Positions 38,415 through 64,000 of a stretch of 64,000 nucleotides of DNA are shown here, one piece after another; the stretch's first letter is position 1, and each line of letters begins with the position of its first letter. The notes under the pieces were generated by a model. The model had not been told where the DNA came from. It saw only the letters and a list, made by a program, of their open reading frames with translations, and ran no database searches. Source of the stretch: Corynebacterium occultum (GTDB lineage: Bacteria > Actinomycetota > Actinomycetes > Mycobacteriales > Mycobacteriaceae); contig NZ_CP046455.1 in NCBI RefSeq assembly GCF_009734425.1, positions 2,914,001 to 2,978,000 on the forward strand, in the 5' to 3' direction. Made by a program: the position numbers and the translations under genes.

Positions 38415-38533
38415 AGGTTGGCAGCGACCTACTCTCCCACACCCTCCCAGGTGCAGTACCATCAGCGCGAACGGGCTTAGCTTCCGGGTTCGGAAAGGGA
38501 CCGGGCGTGACCCCGCCGCAATAAACCACCAAC
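38415..38533 (-). rRNA. 5S ribosomal RNA, operon 1
   Basis: Recognised from conserved blocks (CCGAACCCGGAAGCTAAG, GATGGTACTGC) and from pairing of GUUGG at the 5' end with CCAAC at the 3' end. Ends approximate by a few nt. Confidence 0.93.
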
Positions 38534-38679
38534 ACACTCAAACAACACGAACCAACCACACCCCACCACACAGGGGGATGCGTGTCGTGTCAGACACTGC
38601 ACAGTGGACGCGAAGCAACCCTCAAGATCACTCGTTACAAGTTACGCACAACCACCAACCCCAAGGGCCAGCAGATATA

Positions 38680-43630
<4,951 letters not shown>

Positions 43631-47757: not shown

Positions 47758-48495
47758 TCACCAGAAGAAGTTTGCGTCACCTTCCGATTCATTCTTCTCC
47801 CCACGTGCCGGCCTCAGCACTCTCGGATCACTGACTGTCACCATGTCCACCCCTGCCCTCTCGACTATCCTCAACGCTTCTTCATCCCGGACGGTCCAAC
47901 ATCCAACCTTGATGCCACGGGCCTGAAGAGTCATAATCATCGAGATTTCCAGTGCCTTCACTGAGGGAAGGAATGCGGCTGCGTTGGCTTCTCCCAGTTC
48001 CTCAAAAATCTCCAAATCAAATATTCGTGCTGGCTCCCGGAGCACACCCAGTCGGATCTTCGGTACGCGGGCAGCAAGTTCGCTGAGAATAATGTCGTGG
48101 AAGCTGATGCAGAGCACCCTCTCAAGGTCTTCTGGTCTAAATTCAAATAGCTCCGCAAGTGCCGGCACCGCTCCTGCCGCTTTCACCTCAACTTGGAGGG
48201 GAAGACTCACTTCCTCGAGGACCTCTTCAAGGGTGGGAATTCTGCTGCCATCCTGGAGGGTGATCGCCTTGATCTCTGACAGGGTCAGGGAAGCGATCGG
48301 AGAATCCAGATATGGGGAGTCGGCACTTCCGACTCTGACAGCCGTAGTGTCATGAATGACAACGATTTTGTTATCCCGGGAAGCGTGGACGTCAAGCTCA
48401 ATGGCATCAGCCCCAAGGGCTTCGGCCATCCGAAAACTTTCGAGGCTGTTCTCCAGCGCCAGGTCCTCCGCACCGCGATGCGCGACAATCTTCAT
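47758..48495 (-). CDS. second glycerophosphodiester phosphodiesterase
   Basis: 245 residues from MKIVAHRGAEDLALENS: AHRG catalytic motif, IELDVHASRDNKIVVIHD metal-binding block, VEVKAAG and GCWTVRDEEA, the whole GDPD barrel. Alternative ATG at 48510. It is distinct from the copy at 11372 and lies isolated between rRNA operons with lower GC, suggesting later acquisition. Cytoplasmic. Confidence 0.88.
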   Translation of the reverse strand: MKIVAHRGAEDLALENSLESFRMAEALGADAIELDVHASRDNKIVVIHDTTAVRVGSADSPYLDSPIASLTLSEIKAITLQDGSRIPTLEEVLEEVSLPLQVEVKAAGAVPALAELFEFRPEDLERVLCISFHDIILSELAARVPKIRLGVLREPARIFDLEIFEELGEANAAAFLPSVKALEISMIMTLQARGIKVGCWTVRDEEALRIVERAGVDMVTVSDPRVLRPARGEKNESEGDANFFW

Positions 48496-48722
48496 CTTCT
48501 CTGACTCCATTTCCAGGGCGGATATCTGCTGATGAAGATAACAGCGGGGAACCTGGCCCGCTGGAAAAGAACTCATTTTATACAGAAGAAACCTTTCCGG
48601 AGACTTCATCAATGGCTCTTTCGACCCGGGGAGAGAGATCCCTGCCGGCGGTCTGCCTGCAGCTCAATCAAGCGCTTCTCGACGCCCGTGTTTCCTGCGC
48701 TCCCGCATCGAAACTCCCCTGT

Positions 48723-48919: not shown

Positions 48920-49038
48920 AGGTTGGCAGCGACCTACTCTCCCACACCCTCCCAGGTGCAGTACCATCAGCGCGAACGGGCTTAGCTTCCGGGTTCGGAA
49001 AGGGACCGGGCGTGACCCCGCCGCAATAAACCACCAAC
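48920..49038 (-). rRNA. 5S ribosomal RNA, operon 2
   Basis: Identical to operon 1 copy. Confidence 0.93.
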
Positions 49039-49179
49039 ACACTCAAACAACACGAACCAACCACACCCCACGGTGGGGTGCGTGTCGTGTCAGACACTGC
49101 ACAGTGGACGCGAAGCAACCCTCAAGATCACTCGTTACAAGTTACGCACAACCACCAACCCCAAGGGCCAGCAGATATA

Positions 49180-54130
<4,951 letters not shown>

Positions 54131-54457: not shown

Positions 54458-54484
54458 TGGCACACTATTGAGTTCTCACACAAC
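54458..54484 (-). promoter_or_regulatory. rRNA antitermination (boxA-like) site, operon 2
   Basis: Same sequence as 43958-43984. Confidence 0.55.
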
Positions 54485-54841
54485 ACAACCACACCACCCA
54501 CACCCACCACCACACAGTGACAGTCAATGAGGATCCCTGCAGCTCGTTAATTATCCCGCCAACGAAGAATGTTTTCCTACCGCCACACGAGGAACACACT
54601 GTGCTCCGGGGCGTTGTCGGTCTCGCTGACTCACATAAAGTTACACACCCACCCGAGAAAACACAAAACCACTGGTCAAGGCACTGTCTTGGGATGGCCG
54701 ATGAACGGGAGGTGTCGAGAGGGGAAACCTGCCGTGCACACTCCAGGGCCCGGAAGGGCTGCAGCGTCGATAAGCAAGTTTGAACAGATACCCCGACCTT
54801 TGCCACGACACCGAGCACTGCCGACAGTGATCGGTTTGAAA

Positions 54842-54857
54842 TGTTTCATGTGAAACA
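54842..54857. promoter_or_regulatory. parS-like ParB-binding site 1
   Basis: TGTTTCATGTGAAACA, 15 of 16 match to the parS consensus TGTTTCACGTGAAACA. Confidence 0.8.
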
Positions 54858-56139
54858 TTGCAGACCAACCCCAGTTAACGACCCCCTCGGCTCCAATAAT
54901 CGATATCGATGCCCCAATGCCAATAGAGCAGTCAGATAAACAACTGGTTTCTCAGGGGAAGGCGGAAGGATTGATCTCAGTATTCAGTGGAAGCCTCATC
55001 GACACCTGGGGATCACCCTGGGATGAACTGCCACTTAGTCCGTTGCCGCACTGGTGGCCAAGATGAACACTGGAAAGTCCTCACCTTCGGGATAGTTCTG
55101 CGCAAGACATTCAAGCTGGGCGCATATCTCACTGTCAGCGAACTCACCTGACTGCCAGTAGGTATGGATTGAGCTGTTCATGCCATCACCGCACCGGCAC
55201 CCCGTGGTGGGACCTCCCCGAGAAATTCCACCCCCCGGCAAACGGTAAGGACGCGTAACAGTCACTTCAGAACAACTGGCACCTGAGACGCCTGATCCAG
55301 CAGGCTCTGCGCACCGATGTGAGAGCTGCCGGACAGATCCGCTGGAGATGTCAAGGGGAGGCCGCAGTCCAGCACATACCAACACGCGGTGACTTTAACG
55401 AGGCATAAGTGACTGAATGGCCAGCGATCCGATGCTTCCCGAAGGGTGGGCGACATGGGGACAGCGCCCTGCACCCGAAATTCGATGATCGAAAACCTCA
55501 GCAGAAAATAGACCAGCTGGTAGTTCGCCCACCCCTTGATGCAGGCACCAACCTGGGGCACACCATGATGAAACGAAATTCTGCGAGAATAGGAAGCGGC
55601 GGGGCACAGACGCCCGCCATAAAGAACTCACCGTTATAGATCGAGAAGAAACTACCCCAGGGGATATCGTCCGCTAACTAGATCGCAGGAGAAGACATCC
55701 ACCCTATTAACTACGATGCCTCCCCCACTTCGCACCTTGTAGCTTCCACAGCCATCCCAGTCTCATTCCTCGAGATTTTCCACTACCCGAGAATCAGTTC
55801 TGGCATCACACCCCCACCCGGACTCCAACTCGGTCTTGCACCAGTCAGCGGAAATTCTCAATAACGATAAACCTCGAAACCGAGACGGATATTTGGGCGC
55901 TTTCCGATTTCAGAAAGTGGAATGAAGTTCTCCCAGCGCTATCCCGGAAGGTTTCTTGGAGGCCTCTGGTGAGGAAGACGAAAGGGATGCATTGAATCTG
56001 AAGAGGTCTCCCCAATTCTAGTGACCTGATTACCCACCCATCGACGGTCCATAGCCATCCTGGATCTCTGCGCACGCTCCCCCGTGACCGCTCTCAATTC
56101 ACATTGAAAACCTGGCGGTCCACTTGTCAGATCCACAAA

Positions 56140-56155
56140 TGTTTCACGTGAAACT
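56140..56155. promoter_or_regulatory. parS-like ParB-binding site 2
   Basis: TGTTTCACGTGAAACT, 15 of 16 match; the inner 14 bp GTTTCACGTGAAAC is a perfect palindrome. Confidence 0.85.
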
Positions 56156-57701
56156 CGCCTACATTTTCCTCTCTACTCTGCAGGGAATTCCATCGGGATT
56201 CCCCTCGGCATGGGGGACAAGTTTGAGTGGCGCCCTGAAAGAACCAGAGCGACTCCCCACCCCCCTCCCCCACGAGTACCCGTCTTAACCTCGACCACAC
56301 TTCCCAGGGGTATTCGGCGCTACACAATCGGGCCAGCTCTGCCCCACCCCAGGTTTTAGACCTGCTGGTTTTAATAATTCTTTATGGGCTGGTCGATCTC
56401 AGTGTCCTTCCCGGACCCAAAGAGCACCAGCGGTGCTGGGGATCAGCAGTCTGGGGTCGAAGAAATTCCTCTCAGCGGACTCCACATCCCTGGCGCACAA
56501 GGATCGACGGGCACCCGATATCTCCATTTCTGGGTTGGATGCTGGAAGGCCCGCGGGATAATCAATGCACTCCTGGCCGGAGTGCCTAAGAACGGTTGGA
56601 CTGCCGGGGTCACCCAGGCACACCGCTTCCTTGCCTGAGCGTTCCAGCAGCACTCAGACAGGCTCCACGGCATCTAGATCGAGGCCAGTGGATAAGCGAT
56701 CACCGGATCATGTCTCGACCACTTGGCTGGCGGCAGGGCCTGTCCCGTAGCCGGGGAGAGAACCGTGCCGTCTCCATCCGGTGAATTCACACTCGGGAAA
56801 TGGGATCTGAGATGAGCCCCCTGATCGGCAAAATCTCCAGCCCAGGATCTCACCGCCCCGCTGGCAGTCACGGGTGCCAGTTATAGGAATGCCAATGTGT
56901 TCCTTAGCGCTTTAACCAAGCTGGGAACCGAGTACATCATTCAGGTTAAATCCACCATGAGTCCATCTCGCGAGCGGGTCGTAGGAAATCCCACCCACCC
57001 CAGGGGGCCGGCCTGTCCAGCCCGGTTCTAGGGCGAGGCGCTGTCAAGGGATACGGCCCGACTAAACAGTTCGAGCACCTCACTGACCTACGACTAACCG
57101 CGGACAAGGCCCGCCAGCACCGTTACTGACTGAGTACCTCGCAAGCATCAGGAAAACTGAGGAGCTACTGGCTGTTGATCCTGTCCACCGACACCTCATC
57201 GAGCATCTGGAGCGGTGAGGGAAGGCCTGTCAACACATTGATCAATATCTACCGAGAGCTCAAACATGGTTTGTGTCTGGGCTAACTCCAGGGATCTCAC
57301 TGATCTAACTGTGGACACCACGCCATCGTGGTCGCGGCAGGACATCTTTCCCCTACGGCAATATCCCGATCAACAACCTCGCCTCCAGAGCTCATAAACC
57401 ACATAAGACTTCCCAGGGAATTAGGGCAAGACGATGGATAGCCCTCATGAGCATCCCGCTCTCGGGCGCCCCGATCCGGCTGTTCTGCATCTCCGACTTT
57501 GGCCATGATCAAGGGCCTAGTTGCCCACAACCGATTGCTTACCGCAGAACCCTCCCCCAGGCCATATTTTGCGACTTCATCTCGATGGAGCATCCCTCTG
57601 AGAGTCAGACAGTTCCGCCCTCCACCGTTACCCGTCTCGGCCGGACTGGTCTTCACATTCAGGATCCCTTTCATCATTCAGGTAGATGAATTAGTACTGC
57701 G

Positions 57702-58761
57702 TCAGGCAACCTTTGCCCTTTTAATGATGCCGGCTCGGGTGATGACTTTCCGGAGGATCAGACCGGTGGTGTGGGTATTACGCCAGGCGATGTAACGACG
57801 GATCATCCGCGCCGACTCCCGGTAGCTGGCAAAGTCGGTGCCACCCAGCACGAAGTAGCGCAACCCGGTGAACTGCGCCTTGATCCGGTTCAGCCAGGAA
57901 CCTGAGAGCGGCGTGTAGGCGGATTCCACGTTATTGGCCTCCGCCCAGTCCCCGACCCGACTATCGACCTGGGTCGAGCGGTGCGGGGAGAAATTATCCA
58001 GCACAATCCCGATCCACACCTGTGATGGGTGCAGAGAACGTAGATAACGGCGAAACGCGAGGAACTGCGTCCGGGTCTTGGCTGGTTTGATGTGGCCGTA
58101 GAGCAGGCCAGTGGACAGATCAAAAGCGGTCAGCAGGTGACATACCCCTGCGGGCGGGTGTAGGTCGCTCGTCGTCGACGACACCTCGGGATCCTCTCGG
58201 CCCGGTACCGTCTTACCGTCGGCGATGGCGTAGAGCTCAAGCACCCGATTCTTTTTGGTCTCAAAGTCAGGGTCGGTCGAGGTTTTCCATGTTTTGACAG
58301 CCCGGGAAGGAGCCACCTTCCTCACGCAGCAGCACGCGGAGTCCTTCGTCGGAGATGTCGTCGACCACCCCCTGGTCCATCAGGTGGTGTGCGAGCTTCG
58401 CCAGACTCCAGGCGAAAAACGGCAGATCGTGATCGACGGGGCGGGAGAGGGTGATCTTAGTAATCTCGGCCCGTTGGTCGAGGTCGAATTTTCTGGGCCT
58501 GCCGCCGGCGTATTTCGGTGTCAGGGTCGGGGAGTCGAAGCAGTCGGTGCTGAAGGCATGGATGACACTACGGACTCGGTCGGGGCTGGTGAAGGTCACC
58601 TCGGCGATGGCGGTGGGGCCCATGCCCTGGGCGGACAGCAGGATCATCTGGGCGCGGCGCCAGGTCACCACAGGTCCGGTGGTGCGTCGTACGGTGCGGA
58701 GTAATCGGTTGCCTTCGTCATTGGTAATCTCCCGGACCCGAACACGGTTCGGCGATAGCAA
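57702..58761 (-). pseudogene. IS630-family transposase, frameshifted and deleted
   Basis: The N-terminal HTH part (TNDEGNRLLRTVRRTTGP..., 58267-58761) and the catalytic part (57702-58325) lie in two frames, joined by a shift near 58305 inside AVKTWKT. The first catalytic Asp block (normally DEFGPL) is missing between DGKTVPGREDPEVS and GVCHLLTAFDLS. The second Asp survives in GIVLDNFSPH, and the third position in SWLNRIKAQF reads K where E is usual. Dead element. Confidence 0.82.
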
Positions 58762-59134
58762 TTCTCCTCAGGGAACAGGGCCGGATGTGATCCTTTAAGC
58801 CTGCAACCCCGACCACCGCATGGTCAACCGCTTTCTTTCCTGTCCGAATATGAACAAGACCCGAGGGCCGAGCGGCCCACGGGGAAAAGTTCACAGCCGC
58901 AGTACTAAGGTCAGAATTTTATCCCGGGCAGCAATGCTCGAGCTCATGCTTGGACAACTACCGTCATGTGCTGCCCTGGATGCCCCCTGCACCCTTCGTG
59001 CCTCACCCCTAACATCCCCGAGTGTGCCGACACAATCTACTGCAGCCGGATAAGAGCCAGCTTCGAGGTGGGAGCTGGAAATCCCCTTCAGTCCCACTCC
59101 CCTCCCCCACCAGATCCATCTGTAGAAATAAAAT

Positions 59135-59172
59135 CTCCCATGTTTCACGTGAAACTATGTGAAACATGGGAG
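59135..59172. repeat. inverted repeat enclosing parS-like site 3
   Basis: Perfect 14-bp arms CTCCCATGTTTCAC (59135-59148) and GTGAAACATGGGAG (59159-59172) around GTGAAACTAT; the right arm supplies an extra parS half site. Confidence 0.75.
59141..59156. promoter_or_regulatory. parS-like ParB-binding site 3
   Basis: TGTTTCACGTGAAACT, 15 of 16 match, same variant as site 2; sits in the inverted repeat 59135-59172. Confidence 0.85.
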
Positions 59173-59197
59173 CTTTCAACCTTTAAGCACTTCCCCC

Positions 59198-59643
59198 TTA
59201 AATAAACCCCGGGATCTCCCAGACCAAGTCCTGGAAAGCAGTGTTTCTGTCTTTCGGCAAAGCAAGCTGAATGAAAGCAAGCTGAATGAGAGCATCAGGA
59301 TAAGGAACCATCGCGGACCTCGCGCTGAGTCTGACTCCCGCCGCCACCTCCTGAGCGCCGTTGCCGGCGTCGATCACGTTGACTGCCGTCACGCTCTTCG
59401 CTTGCTCCAGGCCGTTCAACGACATATACCGCTTCTGCCGGATCCAGGGATCACGCTGCTCCGCCAAGACCACATCAACCAGGCGGGCCACAGCATCACA
59501 GCAATGAAGATAAATTCAACTCGGCCAGACTGATCATCATCCTGACACTCGAACCCCGCCAGCACGGCGCCCTGAACCATCAGAACCACCGGACGGAATT
59601 CAACCTTCCACATTTGGTAGACATACCTCGCCAACTCGAGCAT
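59198..59643 (-). pseudogene. eroded hypothetical gene
   Basis: Two overlapping minus frames (59416-59643, starting MLELARYVYQMWKVEFRP, and 59198-59491, VDVVLAEQRDPWIRQKRYM...) look like one about 145-residue protein broken near 59480. No family recognised. It contains a 2 x 15-bp in-frame tandem repeat. Confidence 0.35.
59260..59289. repeat. 2 x 15-bp perfect tandem repeat
   Basis: AAGCAAGCTGAATGA twice, five codons per unit in the eroded ORF. Confidence 0.7.
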
Positions 59644-59649
59644 GGTCAG

Positions 59650-59674
59650 CGCCCTGCATCAGGGATGCAGGGCG
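59650..59674. repeat. hairpin at left edge of IS21 remnant
   Basis: Perfect 11-bp stem CGCCCTGCATC/GATGCAGGGCG with 3-nt loop. Confidence 0.6.
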
Positions 59675-59773
59675 GTGACGCGCGCGGGTATTTGGTACTG
59701 AAGTTCTGGGGATCGGGTACCCACGTTCTGCTCATCGGGTACCGGGGGTAATTAGCTGCGATCCTGTGACCGA

Positions 59774-59802
59774 CGGCTTGCGCACAGTGGACGCGCAAGC
59801 CG
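59774..59802 (+). repeat. hairpin in istA leader of the second IS21 element
   Basis: Perfect 10-bp stem CGGCTTGCGC/GCGCAAGCCG, placed like the one in the first IS21 element. Confidence 0.6.
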
Positions 59803-59827
59803 CATGGTCAACAAAGGAGACCCGCAG

Positions 59828-61365
59828 ATGACCGACTACCGGCCCATTTTGCTGTAGTTGCACGACGGCAGGTCCTACACCCAGATCGCCTCCTACCTGG
59901 GATGTTCCCGCCGCACCATCAGTCAAGCCCGAACTGTCCTGGATGCCCAGGGCTTCTCAGCCGCAGACATCAAAGCCCTGAGCACCACCGACCTGGAGAT
60001 CTTGTTCCCCGATCACCGACGACGCGACCCTGGTAGGTTCGTCCAACCGGATTTCGAGGCCGTCGCCCACCGCCGGAAAACCTGCACACGCATCACCCGC
60101 AAAGTCGAGTGGGAACGCTACCGGAAACTTCCCGCCGCACCCGGTCTGGAGTTCTACTCCTACCCGCAGTTTTGCTCTCTGTTCGACGACTACGTCCACG
60201 AACATGAGCTGACCACCCAACTCGACCACCTTCCCGGGGAAAACATGCAGGTCGACTGGGCCGGTGAGACGATGACGGTGGTTGATCCGTTGTCGTCGCA
60301 GCGCTACCGGGTCTACCTGTTTGTCGCGAGTCTGCCGCACTCCGGGATGATCTACGCCTGCGGATGTCTGGATATGCGGATGCGTAACTGGTTGCAGTCC
60401 CACCAGCAGGCCTTCCGCTATTTCGGTGGCGTCCCCAGGGTGGTCATCCCTGATAATGCCACGACCGCGACTTCCCAGGTGGCCCAGGGCACCCGGGTGA
60501 GGGATCTGACTGATGAATATTTTAAGTTCAGCACCTACTTCGGTTTCGGTGCCGTCGCCGCGCGTTCCTACACCCCCAAAGACAAAGCTCATGTGGAAAA
60601 GAGCGTGGACATCGCTGAGCGCTGGATCATCGAGTACCTGGCCGACCGTAGTTTCTTCAGCCTGGAGGAATGCAACGAGGCAATCGCTGAGCAGGTGGAG
60701 TGGATCAACCACCGGGATCAGTTCCGCGGCCGGTCCCAATCGCGGTGGCAGCTGTTTGAGCAGTATGAACGTGATCAGTTGCTGCCGCTACCCGATCATC
60801 CCTGGTCCTGGGCCGTGTGGCGTAAGTCCAAGGTGGGGATGAACTACCACATCAGGGTCGACAACCACTTCTACTCCGTGCCCTGGCAGTTGGCGGGGAA
60901 AACCGTCGAGACCTGCATCCTGGACGACGCCATCGACATCATCCACGACACCGACATCGTCGCCCGGCACCGGAAAGGCCCCCGCAATTTCCAGTACTCC
61001 ACCCTGGATGAACACGTGCCACCCTCACATCAGGATCTGCGTACTCGGTGGGACAGGCAACGCATCGAACAGTGGGCGGGAAGTCTAGGAGCTTCTACCT
61101 TCGCGGTCATCGAGCAGATGTTTAACGCCAGGAAAGTCGAAGCTCAGGCCTATAATAGCTGCCTTGCGGTGCTGGCACTGTCGAAGGATTTCTCCCGTAG
61201 TGAACTCGAGCAGGCCTGCGACGTCATCATCCGCACCCGCCAGGTGCCGTCGGTACGCAGGATCAAAGAGCAGCTGACCGATCATCGCAAACATCCCCCA
61301 GTCACGGTAGAACCCACCGACCCCGCAGCGTCGACGACCCCGGGTGTGAGGTTACCCTCGAGTAG
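59828..61365 (+). pseudogene. IS21 transposase istA, nonsense-mutated and 3'-truncated
   Basis: The natural start ATG at 59828 has AAAGGAG upstream and reads MTDYRPILL, then TAG at 59855, then LHDGRSYTQIASYLGCSRRT. The DDE residues survive (MQVDWAG, VIPDNAT, DKAHVEKSV). The last about 30 residues are replaced at about 61365 by IS3 DNA. A TTG restart at 59858 is conceivable but would lack the first 10 residues. Confidence 0.8.
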
Positions 61366-61727
61366 TGGACACCCAATGAAGATGGGCCACCGGCCCATCA
61401 GTCAAGGATGCCTACCGATATGTCTACGAGGAAGAAGTACACCCCGGAGTACCGGCCAGGTTGCCGCCCGACTGGTCATCGACACCGGCCGGCCGATCGT
61501 CCAGGTCGCCCGCGAACTGGGAGTCAACCCAGGACTGTTGGGTCGCTGGGTCAAAGCAGAACGCGAACGCTCTGGTGAGATCCCAGCCACCGAGCTGGAA
61601 ACTGATGAACGCACCGAACTGGATCGGCTGCGCAAGGAAATCGCCGAACTGAAGATGGACAACGAGTTCCTGGGAAAAGCAGCAGCCTTGCTTGCGTCGA
61701 AGCGCAGTCAACCCCACGGCGCGTAAA
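61366..61727 (+). pseudogene. IS3-family orfA fragment
   Basis: Begins at a likely IS3 tip TGGACACCCAATGAAG. OrfA starts MSTRKKYTPEYR (ATG 61422 region), then an extra C shifts the frame before QVAARLVIDTGRPIVQVAREL...LLGRWVKAE and the RLRKEIAELKMDNEFLGKAAA coiled coil. orfB is missing. Confidence 0.72.
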
Positions 61728-62060
61728 GAGTTCCTGGCGTCGCTGGTCAAGCCAGCGTTGCTGGTACTAGATGATTTTCTGGCAACGACGGTGTCTGACC
61801 ATGCGTTGTTCCAGGTCTTCAATCTCCTGGTCGCCCGGGAGAATTCCTCGACGGTGCTGACCAGCCAGCACCAACCAGAGTACTGGTACTCGGTGTTCAC
61901 GGATTCTGCTGTGGCGGACGCGGTGTTGAGCAGGCTGTCGAATAATGGTCTGCTGCTACGGCTGCGGGGAGAGGATATGCGCACACGTACGGACCTGAAC
62001 GTGGATCATCCTTATCCCAATACCACGATTCCGAGGCATCTGCGACGCGCAGAACGATAG
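61728..62060 (+). pseudogene. istB 3' fragment of second IS21 element
   Basis: Only the C-terminal half remains: LASLVKPALLVLDDFLATT (Walker B), VLTSQHQPEYWYSVF and SRLSNNGLLLRLRGEDMR. Walker A is lost. Confidence 0.8.
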
Positions 62061-62454: not shown

Positions 62455-62573
62455 AGGTTGGCAGCGACCTACTCTCCCACACCCTCCCAGGTGCAGTACC
62501 ATCAGCGCGAACGGGCTTAGCTTCCGGGTTCGGAAAGGGACCGGGCGTGACCCCGCCGCAATAAACCACCAAC
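62455..62573 (-). rRNA. 5S ribosomal RNA, operon 3
   Basis: Same sequence as the other two copies. Confidence 0.93.
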
Positions 62574-62714
62574 ACACTCAAACAACACGAACCAACCACA
62601 CCCCACGGTGGGGTGCGTGTCGTGTCAGACACTGCACAGTGGACGCGAAGCAACCCTCAAGATCACTCGTTACAAGTTACGCACAACCACCAACCCCAAG
62701 GGCCAGCAGATATA

Positions 62715-64000
<1,286 letters not shown>

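Follow-up and report, generated by a model that had tools for sequence, protein, structure and literature searches.

We analyzed a 64,000-nucleotide stretch of the Corynebacterium occultum genome (hereafter the window; C1:2914001-2978000, where C1 is a contig of 3,109,186 bp accompanied by a second contig of 108,872 bp) and found three parS-like sites between two ribosomal RNA (rRNA) operons. The trio probably consists of true chromosomal parS sites belonging to the cell's own ParABS partition system and forming a lineage-specific secondary cluster that would nucleate ParB and recruit SMC-ScpAB. This reading builds on the sequence of the sites, their position, their distribution in the genome, the presence of a ParB with parS-reading residues, and the absence of such sites from the same locus in the relatives examined. 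The element itself is of a known kind, and its placement next to rRNA operons stands out as unusual among the genomes compared.

A scan of the window with the parS consensus TGTTTCACGTGAAACA, allowing up to three mismatches, gave exactly three matches (at 54842, 56140 and 59141), each agreeing with it at 15 of 16 bases; the shuffled window contained 0.06 matches on average, and none of 100 shuffles reached three. The sites at 56140 and 59141 depart from the consensus only at the outermost base and carry the core GTTTCACGTGAAAC exactly, so each is an intact-core 16-bp palindrome, which the site at 54842 represents only in part. From base composition, 0.003-0.012 exact 14-bp cores would be expected in 3.2 Mb. 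In the half-site of a Noc-binding site, positions 1 and 6 would be A and C; the trio has G and A there. Two possible sources of the sites were considered and rejected. Sites 2 and 3 do not appear to share an origin, as their common stretch is only 17 bp including parS and the flanks are unrelated, and a copy of main-cluster DNA is not apparent either, as blastn comparison of the spacer with the main cluster, the dnaA region and other parS regions returned nothing beyond the parS motif and other matches no longer than 34 bases.

A single ParB above the family cut-off is encoded at C1 3103323-3103865, adjoined by the ParA and GidB/RsmG genes. It contains ParB_N, HTH_ParB and ParB_C domains and matches solved ParB/Spo0J structures, and in a search of genome contigs, from which records of this genome may be missing, C. 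pilosum ranked first (best segment, 60%). No second ParB (TIGR00180, E 0.001) was found in either contig. Counting along the printed alignment to Caulobacter ParB (6t1f) pairs R173, T179, A184 and G201 of the latter with R, M, G and G, respectively, in this ParB. R173 and G201 are reported to be absolutely conserved in ParB and to be Q and R in Noc (PMC7383237), and the retention of their equivalents suggests that this protein, a cognate parS-type ParB encoded together with ParA, should read parS. Noc-type reader residues (Q/K/K/R) are absent from this ParB, a separate Noc gene not having been searched for.

Genome-wide (3.2 Mb), 12 parS sites were detected at up to two mismatches, compared with none for the reversed pattern. 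Relative to dnaA (C1:106), which serves as a proxy for oriC, they are located at -208, -140, -139, -136, -33, -28, -23, -22, -20, -3, +93 and +155 kb. Under uniform placement, the probability that all 12 are as close to dnaA as the farthest one is about 3e-11, a value framed post hoc with the distance limit taken from the data. The main cluster, around parAB, comprises the six sites from -33 to -3 kb, and one of these is within trpCF. The trio is 136-140 kb from dnaA and about 105 kb farther from the origin than the main cluster, implying that it is a secondary cluster and not the primary centromere; it is neither beside parAB and oriC nor common to relatives, as a primary cluster would be. 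The probability, likewise framed post hoc, that a given 13.3 kb receives three of the six sites not belonging to the main cluster is 0.0005. A first-pass annotation of this DNA had proposed three 15/16 parS sites at the above coordinates as the centromere near oriC. The window scan bore out the coordinates and match counts, and parS identity is well supported for the two perfect-core sites and only partially for 54842. The genome scan agreed in that parS sites are not equally frequent elsewhere but confined to the origin side (12 of 12 within 208 kb of dnaA), and the trio is only about 4.5% of the chromosome away from the origin, by the dnaA proxy; the primary cluster, however, is the one around parAB.

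Some of the other sites have features of their own. The parS nearest dnaA (C1:3106287; L024:16287-16302) overlaps the start of the gidB/rsmG frame. An imperfect parS-like site (TGTTTCACGGGAAACC) at C1:2901309 lies upstream of a glfT2-type galactofuranosyltransferase gene, and a perfect-core parS at C1:155125 is within a GntR/FCD regulator frame adjoining a lactate permease gene.

Three rRNA (rrn) operons are arranged in tandem around the trio, all on the minus strand (16S at C1 2956110, 2966610 and 2980145; Table 1). The rrnC 3' end (5S at 62456) flanks the trio on one side and the rrnB promoter block on the other, with site 1 about 150 bp past this block. With dnaA at C1:106, replication would descend coordinates on this arm, so the operons should be co-directional with replication, assuming that oriC is beside dnaA and that C1 is circular. 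Earlier description of the locus as a gene desert with dead transposons between co-directional rRNA operons holds for the most part: rrnB and rrnC share the minus strand, and no above-cut-off Pfam family among 19 open frames in 54465-62060 overlaps any site. IS630-type and IS21-type transposase remnants (IS, insertion sequence) are indeed present, but the IS630 copy, which consists of two overlapping frames, is not provably dead, because some IS630 elements rely on programmed frameshift. A coding function of the spacer was also considered and rejected, all Pfam hits being sub-threshold (Kelch_2 E 0.0021, DUF3966 E 0.022, DUF4096 E 0.026, DDE_5 E 0.012, T4SS-DNA_transf E 0.15).

Table 1. Features of the trio and its surroundings (positions in the window).
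Feature	Position	Strand	Description
parS-like site 1	54842..54857		TGTTTCATGTGAAACA; central C altered (CG to TG), GTGAAACA half intact; predicted weaker
parS site 2	56140..56155		TGTTTCACGTGAAACT; 14-bp core perfect
parS site 3	59141..59156		TGTTTCACGTGAAACT; 14-bp core perfect
Larger inverted repeat round site 3	59135..59172		arms CTCCCATGTTTCAC / GTGAAACATGGGAG, 10-base gap; extra parS half-site; 38-bp imperfect palindrome
rrnA	38416..43626	-	
rrnB	48921..54126	-	16S 52610-54126, 23S 49176-52250, 5S 48921-49038; transcription points away from trio
rrnC 3' part	62456..64000	-	5S 62456-62573, 23S from 62711; 16S past window end; transcription points at trio
rrnB upstream/promoter block	54480..54690 (approximate)	-	common to other rrn operons of same genome
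Non-coding spacer with sites 1 and 2	54690..57690	.	only sub-threshold IS4/5 and DDE transposase traces
IS630-type transposase, two frames	57692..58761	-	HTH and DDE_3 pieces
IS21-type remnant	59858..62060	+	istA-like frame ending in HTH_Tnp_1 piece; istB fragment

Comparison with other Corynebacterium genomes revealed that the distance between the nearest parS and a 16S gene is 716 bp here and at least 23.8 kb in 28 others (39-125 kb in 25 of them; 86 kb in G113). These 28 relatives are those with both parS and 16S positions, ten scanned at up to one mismatch (among the sites listed), six at up to two and 12 at up to one, so that 22 of the 28 are represented by parS at up to one mismatch only, save the rrn loci of G113, G235 and G044; the distance for G033 is linear and would be about 180 kb round the circle by its rounded size. 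Five genomes (G015, G018, G030, G040 and G057) were left out, as their 16S was not looked up or their assembly is in many contigs. At up to three mismatches, no parS was found in the rrn-locus stretches (18-20 kb) of six relatives. In all five whose stretch reached the flank genes (G116, G096, G113, G086 and G235), one or two rrn operons are accompanied by genes for a pseudouridine synthase (one side) and for a GntR regulator and an NYN-domain protein (other side), the G086 stretch holding only the end of the pseudouridine-synthase gene. A universal-stress-protein gene is also beside the locus in three of them (G116, G113 and G235), and in G235 it lies with the pseudouridine-synthase gene between the two rrn operons; in the sixth relative, G044, the only flank gene within the stretch was one for an ABC transporter, on one side. 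The rrn locus is old, and among the genomes compared the trio is found there only in this one. A search with 54500-57700 matched 132 of 242 genomes of the genus (own included), and among the matches listed, all fall within the first 197 bases, which correspond to the promoter block; the spacer proper had no match among those listed from the 241 other genomes. With no parS at the rrn loci of relatives and an unmatched spacer, the trio looks lineage-specific.

Variation in related layouts was also observed. In G086, G096, G044, G235 and G115, two left-arm 16S genes are about 6-13 kb apart, suggesting that the locus is prone to amplification. G045 has one perfect-core parS mid-chromosome (C1:1239293), 24 kb from an rRNA operon, and parS sites of G141 are widely dispersed (C1:51361 to 274626, and 2584011).

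The parS layout resembles that reported for C. glutamicum, which has ten parS sites in 35 kb with parS1 within trpCF (PMC7083940): the same 16-bp consensus, one site in trpCF and an origin-proximal cluster on one arm are shared, whereas the second cluster inside the rrn array differs from the single cluster described there. In C. glutamicum, one parS sufficed, a single parS lets ParB spread as far as 16 kb, and an ectopic parS recruits SMC (PMC7083940). Minor enrichment of ParB at rRNA operons was also reported (PMC7083940); this is a weak point, as SMC enrichment at highly transcribed genes was considered probably artefactual by the authors of a Caulobacter study (PMC5583512). A natural parS at -304 kb is known in B. 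subtilis (PMC8357415), which is similarly on one arm and far from the main cluster, and from which oriC-ward loop extrusion is hindered by head-on encounters; unlike this single distal site, there are three sites here, in the gap from one rrn operon's end to the promoter of its neighbour. Extra parS sites in Caulobacter (PMC5815017), P. aeruginosa (PMC5098823) and C. glutamicum (PMC7083940) likewise provide ParB/SMC loading sites off the native cluster, but those were engineered whereas the trio is natural. Literature searches on parS with rRNA operons and on secondary parS revealed no natural arrangement like this one among the titles and abstract openings listed, all of open-licence papers.

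Based on these features, we infer that ParB, a clamp dependent on cytidine triphosphate, would nucleate at the two perfect-core sites and perhaps weakly at 54842, then spread across the spacer towards the rrn operons and recruit SMC-ScpAB. SMC complexes bound for the terminus (ter) would run with rrnB/rrnA transcription, and those bound for oriC would meet rrnC polymerases head-on; transcription may bias this traffic, and there may be a selected benefit. The sites would have been gained in non-coding DNA of the origin zone. In P. aeruginosa, parS is reported to be functional within about 650 kb around oriC (PMC5098823), and a second parS cluster is tolerated within a zone of about 500 kb in Caulobacter (PMC5815017). 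The trio is within the oriC distance at which extra parS sites are tolerated in these bacteria, suggesting that it would supplement, not replace, the main centromere.

Several observations weigh against this secondary-cluster reading. Changes of the central CG, as carried by site 54842, were seen in none of the 106 parS sites listed for 18 relatives (40 sites at up to two mismatches and 66 at up to one), implying that this site is atypical and may be weak; its GTGAAA half is retained, however, and since this half is the conserved one among Caulobacter parS sites (PMC5815017), ParB binding may still be possible. At up to three mismatches, the genome has 15 sites versus two for the reversed control, and the three extra ones (+237, -262 and -274 kb) are about at the control level. 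Random scatter of 12 sites across the origin zone puts some three of them inside 4.3 kb in 6% of trials (also framed post hoc), which makes the tightness of the trio alone weak evidence. In addition, segregation can suffer when an ectopic parS is distant from oriC (PMC7083940), and the lack of conservation in relatives leaves selection for the trio unsupported.

The most serious alternative is that ParB does bind the sites but that selection has given them no role, the palindromes having arisen or been retained through drift within unconstrained non-coding DNA, in the zone that tolerates extra parS without harm. This is possible but, on balance, unlikely. The spacer without a relative among the matches listed, the absence of parS beside rrn in the 28 relatives, the tolerant zones of Caulobacter (PMC5815017) and P. 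aeruginosa (PMC5098823), and the sufficiency of a single parS in C. glutamicum (PMC7083940) are all consistent with it, whereas drift alone would be most unlikely to produce two perfect 14-bp cores only 3 kb apart, given the number expected per genome; one core might have been copied to the other, but the flanks are unrelated beyond the 17-mer. It is far less probable that the sites are relics of a plasmid or phage whose partition site matched the host consensus and arrived with the spacer. IS remnants do adjoin the spacer, which is not found in relatives; yet it has no match in phages, the best 10 of 80 plasmid records match only the IS630 part and not the spacer, and no second ParB was found in either contig. 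An assembly artefact, in which near-identical rrn repeats allowed a misplaced rrn-spacer-rrn cassette, seems more improbable still: the three rrn copies have equal 16S scores and near-identical flanks, and the arrangement was judged from the assembly, but the array is bounded by outer sequence that matches the relatives' rrn locus, and the other three rrn copies are single.

Inverted repeats extend beyond some of the sites. The repeat round site 3 folds on either strand (over 49 bases, -26.6 and -23.7 kcal/mol), site 1 is also within a hairpin (-16.2 kcal/mol), and site 2 has almost none (-3.5 kcal/mol). That the palindromes are transcription terminators or regulator sites instead of parS, as the hairpins at sites 3 and 1 might suggest, is the least credible explanation, since neither hairpin is reported by a terminator scan (although site 3 may escape it, loops being limited to 8), an extended hairpin is lacking at site 2, and restriction to the origin zone would be unexpected of terminators. 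A main-cluster parS near C1:3076561 likewise lies between near-complementary arms (CCGGGA ... TCCCGG), so hairpin-embedded parS may recur.

A bolder extension of the secondary-cluster reading is that rRNA transcription rectifies the ParB/SMC platform of the trio: rrnC would block origin-ward SMC and rrnB/rrnA would let it pass ter-ward, giving one-way extrusion and a domain border at the array, with the sites gained together with or after local rrn amplification. SMC leaving parS is reported to be hindered by head-on transcription (PMC5583512), and strong parS sites far apart lead to SMC collisions (PMC8357415). Against rectification, hindrance in B. subtilis was only partly relieved by rifampicin in one mutant and not at all with excess SMC, SMC-SMC collisions being blamed (PMC8357415), implying that transcription may matter less than SMC traffic. 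We regard this extension as speculative and rather doubtful.

A few neighbouring features may be noted. The IS21 istA-like frame (59858-61726) terminates in an IS3-type HTH_Tnp_1 segment, as if an element had inserted into another, and an open frame for a glycerophosphodiester phosphodiesterase (GDPD; 47758-48612) lies between rrnA and rrnB. The second contig carries catA (catechol 1,2-dioxygenase; L129:3020-3807), about 80% identical to Rhodococcus plasmid versions; a plasmid search with 20 kb of this contig yielded ten records, their matches confined to single genes.

Where it has been tested, parS function is confined to a zone around oriC, and SMC is hindered both by head-on transcription and by SMC from other parS sites. 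The trio appears to place additional loading sites amid strong co-directional transcription units, a natural counterpart of what has so far mostly been engineered, and this placement offers a natural test of chromosome-organising machines under heavy transcription. The parS layout of Corynebacterium varies between species beyond the single cluster of C. glutamicum.

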